Of a stretch of 25,887 nucleotides of DNA, positions 3,143 to 12,654 are shown in pieces (position 1 is the first letter of the stretch; every line of letters begins with the position of its first letter). The translations under genes and the position numbers were made by a program. The DNA is taken from the IMG/VR virus record IMGVR_UViG_3300002053_000067, positions 1 through 25,887 of that record. One strand, 5' to 3'. The notes under the pieces are model-generated. The model was not told the origin of the DNA and did not search any database. It was given only the letters and a program-made list of their open reading frames with translations. This DNA comes from a virus.

Positions 3143-3173
3143 TAGGAATTATAATATATGAAAAAACGTGATT

Positions 3174-3450
3174 ATGAAAAGTAGAGTATGCGAAAATTGT
3201 AAAAAAGAATATCTTCCTACAGGAAAAAATCAAAAAGTTTGTAAAATTTGTAAACCTGTTCGTATTAAAGAAACAAATAAACGATATTTTAGAAGTGAAA
3301 AAAGGAAATTAGGAAAAAAGCAATATAGGAACACTATTGGGGGAAAATTAGGAGTTGTATTTTCACATATTAAAGAACGTTGTAAATATTGAGTTTATTA
3401 GTCCAAGTGAACATAAAAAGAAACATTCAAAAAGAGTGAGAACTAAATAA
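3174..3450 (+). pseudogene. HNH homing endonuclease remnant with internal deletion and frameshift
   Basis: The frame from ATG 3174 gives the N-terminal half of an HNH endonuclease like the one at 52-504. It has a zinc-type cysteine set (CENCKKEY, CKICK), a basic linker, then NTIGGKLGVVFSHIKERCKY, and it stops at TGA 3390-3392. In the +1 frame directly across that stop the C-terminal end of such a protein appears: NIEFISPSEHKKKHSKRVRTK, ending at TAA 3448-3450. The whole catalytic middle (YGGRGI and DRIDNNGHYE parts) is missing. Left and right parts meet at AATATT, suggesting deletion between short repeats. No ribosome binding site is seen. It should be inactive. Confidence 0.8.
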
Positions 3451-3620
3451 TGGGAAAAGGATCGACACGCAGACCGAGTAGTATAACAAGAGAGGAAGAA
3501 AATTTGCGTTGGAAACTGGCTTTTGGTCATATTACTTTTGAACAATTTGAGCGGAAGTATAAGGAATTATTAAAAGCGGGGAAAATAAAACGTAATGGGA
3601 GGGTGATTAAAAATGCCTGA
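3450..3620 (+). CDS. Small phage protein of the 'GKGSTRRP' type
   Basis: ATG 3450 overlaps the stop of the endonuclease remnant (TAATG), and the frame ends at TGA 3618-3620, giving 56 residues. The start MGKGSTRRPSSITREEENLR is a pattern seen at the N-terminus of many short uncharacterised phage proteins. It continues WKLAFGHITFEQFERKYKEL and a basic end. It overlaps the next gene by eight bases. Function is unknown; the basic, helical make-up would suit a small DNA- or protein-binding factor. Confidence 0.7.
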   Translation: MGKGSTRRPSSITREEENLRWKLAFGHITFEQFERKYKELLKAGKIKRNGRVIKNA

Positions 3621-4092
3621 GTGCATTGATTGTGAAAATTATTCAGGAATGGGGTGTATATGTCTAAAAGGTAAGGTTTCTATATTAGCAAATTTACCTT
3701 GTGCGGATTTTCAATCAAAACAACCAAAACAACCCAACCCAAAAACCCGCCAATTTGATTCTGGGGCTACACGGGATACTGATATTGGAAAACTTGATTA
3801 TGAGGGATTTCTTTCCCCGATAGTTTTACAACGATATGCTCAATATCTTCATAAACACCGCACACAATCAGATGGACAATTGCGAGATTCTGATAATTGG
3901 CAAAATATGTTTGGGGAAAAACATTTTGATATATGTATGAAATCCGCATGTAGGCATTTTATAGATTGGTGGTTGCAGCATCGTAAAATTAAAACAGAAA
4001 ATGAGTTAGAAGATAGTATATGTGCAATTATTTTTAATGCAATGGCGTATCTTTATAAAATTGAATATGAAAAAAGAAATAGTAAAAATTAA
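3613..4092 (+). CDS. dATP/dGTP diphosphohydrolase-like protein (DUF5664-type)
   Basis: The 159-residue protein starts at ATG 3613 behind GGGAGGGTG. Residues 1-35 hold a cysteine-rich segment (CIDCENYSGMGCICLKG) that may bind a metal. From about residue 50 the sequence follows the pattern of the phage DUF5664 family: TRDTDIGKLDYEGFLSPIVL, then RYAQYLHKHRTQSDGQLRDSDNWQ, then MKSACRHFIDWWLQHR, and finally CAIIFNAMAYLYKI. Pfam names this family dATP/dGTP diphosphohydrolase N-terminal domain, and it is related to MazG-like enzymes that remove pyrophosphate from dNTPs. Its last 17 codons appear to have been replaced when the following LAGLIDADG gene arrived; the final residues (EYEKRNSKN) share DNA with that gene's start. 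Confidence 0.75.
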   Translation: MPECIDCENYSGMGCICLKGKVSILANLPCADFQSKQPKQPNPKTRQFDSGATRDTDIGKLDYEGFLSPIVLQRYAQYLHKHRTQSDGQLRDSDNWQNMFGEKHFDICMKSACRHFIDWWLQHRKIKTENELEDSICAIIFNAMAYLYKIEYEKRNSKN

Positions 4093-4489
4093 ACCGTCAA
4101 AAGATATATTGTGCTATGTTGCTGGTTTGTTTGACGGAGAGGGTTGCATAAAAATTTGCAGAGTAAATGCTAAATCCATCAATAGACCAAATGATAGATT
4201 TACTCTTGATATTCAATTACAGATGACTGATGAAAATGTAGTTAAATGGCTTTGGGGTACTTTTGGTGGTTATTTCTATATACATAAAACTAAAAATCCC
4301 AAATGGAAAACTTCATATAGATGGATACTACAATATCAGAGATGCAAACTGTTTCTTCAATGGATAATGCCATTTTTGAAAACCAAAAAACGATTAGCAA
4401 AATTGGCATTAGAGTATTTAGAAATATCAAAAAGAGATATAGAAGCAAAAAAAGGAATTTATCAACTGATAAAAAAGATGAACCATTAA
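4067..4489 (+). CDS. LAGLIDADG homing endonuclease
   Basis: The 140-residue protein from ATG 4067 has one clear LAGLIDADG helix, YVAGLFDGEGCIKI (about residues 16-29), then a beta-rich saddle region (FTLDIQLQMTDENVVKWL, SYRWILQYQRCKLFLQWI) and a helical end. This is the layout of single-motif enzymes that act as homodimers and cut a long specific DNA site. An upstream TTG (4022) would put the start deep in the neighbour and lacks support. The first 26 bases overlap the DUF5664 gene in another frame, and a second copy of that gene's end follows at 4488-4559, marking the insertion site. No good ribosome binding site is seen, so translation may depend on coupling. Confidence 0.85.
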   Translation: MKKEIVKIKPSKDILCYVAGLFDGEGCIKICRVNAKSINRPNDRFTLDIQLQMTDENVVKWLWGTFGGYFYIHKTKNPKWKTSYRWILQYQRCKLFLQWIMPFLKTKKRLAKLALEYLEISKRDIEAKKGIYQLIKKMNH

Positions 4490-4559
4490 TACAATGAGGT
4501 ATTTGTTTGAAATTTTGAAAAAAAATCGGAGGAAAAATGAACATAATAGAAAGCACTAA
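4488..4559 (+). pseudogene. Displaced 3' end of the DUF5664 gene
   Basis: In the frame beginning AAT 4488 the DNA reads NTMRYLFEILKKNRRKN and so on to TAA 4557-4559. This matches the end of the intact gene upstream (NAMAYLYKI) at N, M, Y, L and I in register, about 20 of 27 bases being identical, and it looks even closer to the usual end of the family. It follows the LAGLIDADG gene directly and has no start of its own, as expected if the endonuclease gene entered near the 3' end. Its GGAGG serves as ribosome binding site of the next gene. Confidence 0.6.
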
Positions 4560-4947
4560 TCGAGGATTATGGTATTTTGCCCATCCTTACACTTGTAAAG
4601 ACAAAAACGGAAATTTTGTACCAGAAGGAGAGGATGCAAATTTCCATCTTTGTAATATTCGAGCAGCGGAATTGTTAATTCGGGGTTATAATATTTATGC
4701 CCCAATTTCACACACACACCCGATTCATCGGGCTTGTCCCGAATTTCTTGCCCGGCATGAGCATGAACTTTGGTATCAATTAGACAATGAATTTATTGAC
4801 AAAACAAATTGGGCGGGAATTATTCTTGCTCCTGGGTGGGAAAAATCATCTGGTTGTCAGGCTGAAAAAGAACGAATCGAAGTTCGGGGACTGCCTGTTC
4901 TTTTTTATTCTGATATTATTGCGGAGGTAAAATGTCACGAGTGTTAG
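4537..4947 (+). CDS. DUF1937 / nucleoside 2-deoxyribosyltransferase-like protein
   Basis: The 136-residue protein starts at ATG 4537 behind TCGGAGGAAAA. Its pattern fits the DUF1937/DUF4406 group, which has the fold of nucleoside 2-deoxyribosyltransferases: WYFAHPYTCKD at residues 8-18, an N-x-R-A-A-x-L-L-x-x-G-Y-N-I-Y-A-P-I-S-H-T-H-P stretch, and the second half WAGIILAPGWEKSSGCQAEKE with the acidic residue usual for catalysis. Such enzymes exchange or hydrolyse the base of a deoxynucleoside. Together with the DUF5664 protein and the phosphoesterase it suggests a nucleotide-pool function, though most DUF1937 proteins are uncharacterised. It overlaps the next gene by 16 bases. Confidence 0.75.
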   Translation: MNIIESTNRGLWYFAHPYTCKDKNGNFVPEGEDANFHLCNIRAAELLIRGYNIYAPISHTHPIHRACPEFLARHEHELWYQLDNEFIDKTNWAGIILAPGWEKSSGCQAEKERIEVRGLPVLFYSDIIAEVKCHEC

Positions 4948-12097: not shown

Positions 12098-12196
12098 ATG
12101 GGTGTTCAAATTAAAGGCGACAAGTCACCACCCCGCAACTCACCTTGTCCCTGTGGTTCAGGATTAAAATTCAAATATATGGAGGATTCTTTTTGA
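12098..12196 (+). pseudogene. Stranded 5' end of the SEC-C zinc protein gene
   Basis: The frame from ATG 12098 codes for a SEC-C zinc motif (PPRNSPCPCGSGLKFKY) and then stops after five unrelated residues at TGA 12194-12196. A complete gene that starts with the same kind of sequence (MGV, then SRNSLCPCNSGLKTKHCHGD) lies just beyond the HNH-AP2 gene. The piece is therefore best read as the original start of that gene, cut off by insertion of the endonuclease gene. It has no good ribosome binding site, and the final His/Cys ligand of the SEC-C motif is lost. Confidence 0.7.
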
Positions 12197-12654
12197 TGAA
12201 GCGAATTCCACTAACACAAGGTAAATATGCTTTAGTTGATGATGAAGATTATATGTTGGTATCACAATATAAATGGTATGCACACAAGGAACGAAATACA
12301 TGGTATGCTTGTTGTGATATTTATTTTACACCTAAATATAAAAAATGTTTGCGTATGCACCGTTTAATTTTAGGTCTTGGTTGGTTTGATAAACGACAGG
12401 GGGACCATGTTGATCACAATGGATTAAATAATAGACGGTTTAATCTTAGAATATGTACTCACCAACAAAATCTTCAAAACAGAAAAGGTGTTAAAGGGGT
12501 GTATTATCATAAAAAAGCATGGATGGCTATAATTGGAATAAATGGAAAATCAGTCTATCTTGGTCGTTTTAAAAGAAAGAAAGATGCTCTTGCAACTCGT
12601 AAAAAAGCAGAACAAAAATTCTTTAAGGAGTTTACCTATGGGAGTTGTGCCTAA
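12196..12654 (+). CDS. HNH homing endonuclease with AP2 DNA-binding domain
   Basis: The 152-residue protein starts at ATG 12196 (TGATG overlap with the stranded fragment; GGAGGA nine bases upstream). It opens with the usual MKRIPLTQGKYALVDDEDY, has the HNH core from LRMHRLILG to GDHVDHNGLNNRRFNLR, and ends with an AP2-like DNA-binding domain (GVYYHKKAWMAIIGINGKSVYLGRF). All parts are present, so it should be active in site-specific cutting. Its last 17 bases also encode the first residues of the SEC-C protein in another frame, and its own 3' end carries that gene's ribosome binding site (AAGGAG 12625-12630). Confidence 0.9.
   Translation: MKRIPLTQGKYALVDDEDYMLVSQYKWYAHKERNTWYACCDIYFTPKYKKCLRMHRLILGLGWFDKRQGDHVDHNGLNNRRFNLRICTHQQNLQNRKGVKGVYYHKKAWMAIIGINGKSVYLGRFKRKKDALATRKKAEQKFFKEFTYGSCA

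Follow-up and report, generated by a model that had tools for sequence, protein, structure and literature searches.

Homing endonucleases of phages have been described in introns, in inteins or in intergenic gaps. The closest described layouts come from fungi. In the mitochondrial genes atp6 of Allomyces macrogynus and atp6, atp9, cox2 and nad3 of Glomus, mORFs with a C-terminal duplication have been reported, in which mostly a LAGLIDADG endonuclease follows the gene, a second, diverged 3' end lies downstream and the living gene is complete (PMC3630166). In the WHO elements of Torulaspora and Lachancea yeasts, the endonuclease gene lies 3' of the complete FBA1 gene that it targets, and fragments of the FBA1 3' end follow it; allele-specific cleavage has been shown in this system, and the 3' end of the target is replaced and made resistant (PMC7282813). 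In phages, the free-standing seg and mob endonucleases of T4 lie in intergenic positions, cut hundreds to thousands of bases away and co-convert the flanks (PMC2988022), and homing endonuclease genes (HEGs) are known at exchange boundaries (PMC10448857). A phage precedent for displaced target tails was not found in the literature searched, which may not cover all papers.

The window analyzed here, which is the whole of the IMG/VR virus record IMGVR_UViG_3300002053_000067 from an uncultured phage (25,887 bases), carries a complete DUF5664-like gene, a LAGLIDADG endonuclease gene and, directly 3' of the latter, an in-frame, 5'-truncated tail of the DUF5664 family of about 24 codons, which we call the relic (Table 1). 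We propose that this locus represents a phage homing element composed of a gene allele and a LAGLIDADG endonuclease gene joined to the 3' end of that allele, a reading to which we assign a probability of roughly 0.7; phages appear to possess a gene-end-replacing mobile element of their own, comparable to the one known from fungi. The layout matches that of the fungal mORFs (PMC3630166), and the mechanism that we propose follows that of the WHO elements (PMC7282813). The mORFs differ in belonging to fungal mitochondria and in that nothing but the C-terminus is foreign, whereas an apparently whole allele is involved in the phage window, where, moreover, the gene end and the endonuclease start share bases in different frames. 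The WHO elements are nuclear, encode an intein-like endonuclease with a zinc finger and often occur in tandem clusters, and cleavage, which is experimental there, is deduced in the phage. The T4-like seg/mob genes (PMC2988022) and HEG islands (PMC10448857) resemble the window in that endonuclease genes stand beside nucleotide-metabolism genes and neighboring sequence is co-converted; unlike the window, the T4 types are GIY-YIG or HNH enzymes in intergenic positions, no displaced target tail is described for them in the passages considered, and the mobE/mobA insertions split the host gene.

Table 1. Positions of the features of the element and its flanks in the window.
Feature	Coordinates	Strand	Evidence or remark
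56-aa ORF, left-hand flank	3450..3620	+	L078, which is HEG-free, has a homologue immediately 5' of DUF5664
DUF5664/dGTP_diPhyd_N-like gene, complete, 159 aa	3613..4092	+	ORF; putative dNTP pyrophosphohydrolase family; K-type allele
Conserved end segment of the living DUF5664-like gene, N-A-M-A-Y-L-Y-K-I	4036..4062	+	in last helix of model
Bases coding the last codons and stop of the DUF5664 gene and the endonuclease start	4067..4092	+	ORFs
LAGLIDADG endonuclease gene, 140 aa, one motif copy	4067..4489	+	PF00961 E=1.2e-5; phrog_5046
LAGLIDADG motif VAGLFDGEG	4118..4144	+	alignment with Streptomyces phage and IMG/VR relatives
Relic (I)NTMRYLFEILKKNRRKNEHNRKH and stop, most likely the 3' end left by a displaced E-type DUF5664 gene	4485..4559	+	position-specific matrix, 29.1 bits; L078 match
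DUF1937 gene, right-hand flank	4537..4947	+	PF09152 1.5e-14

The endonuclease ORF opens with an ATG at 4067 and stops at 4487-4489, with a GTG at 4022 and an ATG at 4037 also in frame, and it overlaps the DUF5664-like gene out of frame, the 26 shared bases encoding parts of both proteins. A preliminary description of this DNA had recognized this dual coding as well as the insertion of the LAGLIDADG gene at the 3' end of a complete gene, and the ORF coordinates agree with it on both points. The frame of the relic begins with bases that overlap the endonuclease stop codon and ends with 23 bases that overlap the DUF1937 ORF; it has no gene start, yet the M of its NTM is an ATG. An identical locus is present on a second contig, IMGVR_UViG_3300002052_000039, which may come from a related sample.

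The match of the endonuclease to PF00961 (26.5 bits) exceeds the curated cut-off of 23.1, which together with the motif marks it as a predicted LAGLIDADG homing endonuclease, and a longer form of its ORF matches phrog_5046 (E=3.8e-22); the single LAGLIDADG motif implies that the predicted enzyme is homodimeric. The upstream protein matches PF18909 at E=0.024 and 15.1 bits, below the gathering score of 27, and is accordingly called DUF5664-like only; in a six-member alignment of close relatives, four match this family (best E=2e-4). A PDB fold search with the DUF5664 model returned nothing significant (best AF_0060, E=1.1). In the AlphaFold model, the last helix of the DUF5664-like protein comprises residues 132-157 and is prolonged by the residues after Ile150, where the sole new tail, residues 151-159 (EYEKRNSKN), is a read-through into the first codons of the endonuclease.

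The relic is more than a chance resemblance, since its matrix score exceeds both nulls given below. About 100 relatives of the DUF5664-like gene were collected, and a position-specific matrix was built from 92 distinct C-termini; the full set of 16 aligned DUF5664 relatives proved too heterogeneous to scan the collection with. The C-termini of the family share the register F-N-x-M-x-Y-L-x-[E/K]-[I/L]-L-K, the ends of the roughly 100 relatives reading F-N-x-M-G-Y-L-x-E-[I/L/V]-L-K, and the relic falls in this register, including the N-x-M-x-Y-L pattern named in the preliminary description. Only two places in the window score above 6.6 bits, the relic at 29.1 bits and the living end at 21.4 bits; 60 shuffled 26-kb windows yielded no score higher than 17.4. 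Of the 929,436 stop-free 12-mers taken from the fetched loci, all those scoring at least as high as the relic lie in DUF5664 genes or in copies of the same relic. DNA identity between the relic and the living end (20/27 nt) is non-significant by itself in AT-rich DNA, and an unrelated 26-nt pair at 73% identity is present nearby; a DNA repeat search was rejected as a proof in its own right, similarity over 26-29 nt being unremarkable in AT-rich DNA.

Seven HEG-free loci (L078, L004, L009, L011, L012, L013 and L014) lack an equivalent of positions 4092-4487 and have one DUF5664 gene with one tail at the site. The end of L078, NTMGYLFEILK, matches that of the relic, NTMRYLFEILK, at 10/11 residues and 27/33 nucleotides, the best match of any relative in both DNA and protein, and the downstream copy in the window is nearer to the HEG-free orthologue than the living end is. 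This match and the matrix score bear out the earlier proposal that the start-less second version of the end at 4488-4559 is the displaced old one, and both of the checks suggested with it, namely that family C-termini are nearer to the relic than to the present end and that genomes without the inserted segment exist, gave the expected result. In the L078 locus, a homologue of the 56-aa ORF stands immediately 5' of the DUF5664 gene and is itself preceded by an HTH ORF of weak similarity (E=2.5e-4); the metallophosphoesterase further downstream is shared as well, and another gene takes the place of DUF1937. In the other six, a DUF1937 gene follows the DUF5664 gene directly or past a short gap or small ORF, and all six have E-type ends as defined below. 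The closest HEG-free relatives are 70-74% identical in protein to the DUF5664 gene and 81-85% to DUF1937. A HEG-free K-type donor genome with the same backbone was not found among the relatives collected.

Two types of end, K and E, can be distinguished by a diagnostic position, and we examined which end belongs to which gene body. In a tree of 98 DUF5664 gene bodies, from which the last codons were left out, the window gene falls in a 13-member clade (support 99/92); K occupies the diagnostic position in 13/13 genes of this clade and in 0/85 outside it, where nearly all have E. The ends in the clade read A-Y-L-x-K, like the living gene's own end, and the preceding diagnostic position is A in 10/11 members of a group bearing CMKS residues and G in 88/93 genes elsewhere. 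The living end NAMAYLYKI has A and K, whereas the relic has R and E at the same positions and is of the E-I-L-K type found in the rest of the family. Two relatives absent from the tree stand apart from this rule: L056 combines the CMKS residues of the window's clade with an E-type end, and L054 has D at the K/E position. Most likely, an E-type gene was displaced and left the relic as its end, and the gene now upstream is a different, K-type allele. Since the body and the present end, up to Ile150, share the clade signature (A, K) and the relic carries the other type, the whole gene, and not the tail alone, probably came with the endonuclease, the resident gene having been replaced by the allele of another lineage; this choice rests on one or two diagnostic residues together with synteny. 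The preliminary description, which held that the gene was kept whole while its tail was exchanged, was right about the complete ORF; the exchange probably involved the allele.

The layout recurs at thyX. We examined 118 distinct phage LAGLIDADG loci for similarity between the 250 bases after the endonuclease and the C-terminus encoded by the gene that ends at it; 108 loci were testable, and three of these (the window, L167 and L227) have a relic. The relic of the window scores just 30 in this unguided test, so short relics like it would be missed and 3/108 is a lower bound. L167 and L227 score 81 and 73, against a 99.9% point of 47 and a maximum of 59 in the null. Both come from uncultured phages, and their thyX genes were assigned by PF02511. 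L167 (654-2000) has a complete ThyX, a LAGLIDADG gene and a diverged tail, KKVAEAMRTILEDLFPETLAAYNEVKKL and stop; in L227 (764-2035), the last thyX codons contain the ATG of the endonuclease, and the relic, MIRCYANAAAITLGKVMPVTHDAFVRNDWTAP and stop, begins at the endonuclease stop, a compact geometry that is the same as that of the window. All three loci show the order of complete target gene, HEG and truncated, diverged target 3' end. The two thyX endonucleases are 41% identical, and their insertion points, read from the two ThyX ends, are at nearly the same position.

The two thyX tails at each locus are about 52-63% identical in DNA with the ThyX protein sequence kept, and 0/20,000 random-substitution controls were as similar in protein, which indicates that the tails of L167 and L227 descend from two working alleles; a decayed duplicate tail is ruled out at these loci by this control. 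In the window, where nine codons are aligned, the corresponding control is weak (p ~0.065) and speaks weakly against a decayed K-type duplicate; with this relic alone, independent divergence can hardly be told from decay after the insertion, and the thyX cases carry that argument. Among ThyX relatives, L218-L224 lack an HEG and carry one tail each; in L167, neither tail is clearly nearer to the relatives, which do not show which of the two is older. In cultured phages, related endonucleases beside or near thyX in Pseudomonas phage KIL1, Vibrio phage 496E54-1 and the Streptomyces phages Faust and Navo are not accompanied by a detectable relic. In KIL1 (L307, 594-1935) and 496E54-1 (L311, 498-1947), the LAGLIDADG gene starts 11 bases inside the thyX end, and the thyX of 496E54-1 is annotated as 'partial'. 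A mirror-image test of the LAGLIDADG loci revealed no displaced gene starts 5' of HEGs. At L108 (2622-3363) and L117 (2639-3336), LAGLIDADG genes lie directly 5' of DUF5664, with a stop near or overlapping the DUF5664 start and no duplication.

From these arrangements we infer how the element could cleave and move. In a resident or co-infecting phage with an E-type allele, the endonuclease would cut the conserved 3' end of that allele, around the F-N-x-M codons, and the break would be repaired from the element-bearing allele. Leftward copying through the gene would replace the resident gene with the resistant K-type allele, and on the right, rejoining of the recipient at or just past the cut would leave the recipient's last codons behind as the relic. 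Since a working end comes with the element, the host gene would never be lost; the present protein is predicted to read on for nine residues past Ile150 into the first codons of the endonuclease.

A strict Allomyces/WHO model would assign both the gene body and the relic to the original gene and have the endonuclease bring in nothing but the final codons. Such a tail-only exchange would produce the same final layout, is documented in fungi and is consistent with L056, where CMKS residues occur with an E-type end. We consider this version unlikely: the A...K signature shared by body and end (13/13 versus 0/85) argues against it, and the window shows no visible foreign joint and no foreign end on a native gene body. 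The different DUF5664 types of the body and the relic would also be expected if the relic were the end of a second, tandem DUF5664 gene, most of which was lost after the endonuclease arrived between the two. This seems more improbable still, given that no tandem pair occurs in the 104 loci encoding the family, that the thyX cases would need the same coincidence and that in L227, as in the window, the relic starts precisely where the endonuclease stops.

Splicing can be set against the proposed element in a similar manner. The position within a conserved gene and the downstream piece in register would suit an endonuclease inside a group I intron whose removal joins the gene body to the downstream tail; we give this hardly any weight, because no Rfam intron family was found at E<=5, the endonuclease ORF fills 423 of about 450 bases and leaves about 30 non-ORF bases with almost no room for a ribozyme core, and the gene upstream is already complete with a conserved end. 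An intein was rejected, the HEG being in a different frame and the host gene stopping at 4092. As implausible as the intron is a chance match or a part of some other gene; the relic is short and the DNA repeat alone is non-significant, but the matrix null tests and the L078 match contradict this explanation.

An endonuclease that carries along a working end, or even the complete allele, of its target, as in the proposed element, would explain how the coding part of a useful gene can be invaded without splicing, and would give phages the same trick that was found independently in fungal mitochondria and yeast. The exchange of nucleotide-metabolism genes between phages would also become directly testable, with alleles predicted to be sensitive (E-type) and resistant (K-type) already available. 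As a more tentative extension, to which we give slightly less than even odds, a class of phage LAGLIDADG elements may move together with all or part of a nucleotide-metabolism gene in a form that resists cleavage (cleave-and-rescue). The displaced tail would then provide the homology on the right for the following transfer, and whole dNTP-metabolism alleles would be swapped between phage lineages.

Other endonuclease genes are present in the window. An HNH-type homing endonuclease gene a short way upstream, at 3168-3449 of the window, appears dead, its N-terminal part being joined out of frame to its last codons at AATATTGAG, and the catalytic part of this gene is retained at 1-175 of L001, a contig otherwise identical from 3384 on; the putatively exchanged DUF5664 gene thus stands between two homing endonuclease genes. 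Two more endonuclease-like genes lie at 28-504 and 12145-12654 of the window, one of which resembles the HNH gene in L001, and the other has weak HNH_3 and AP2 matches.
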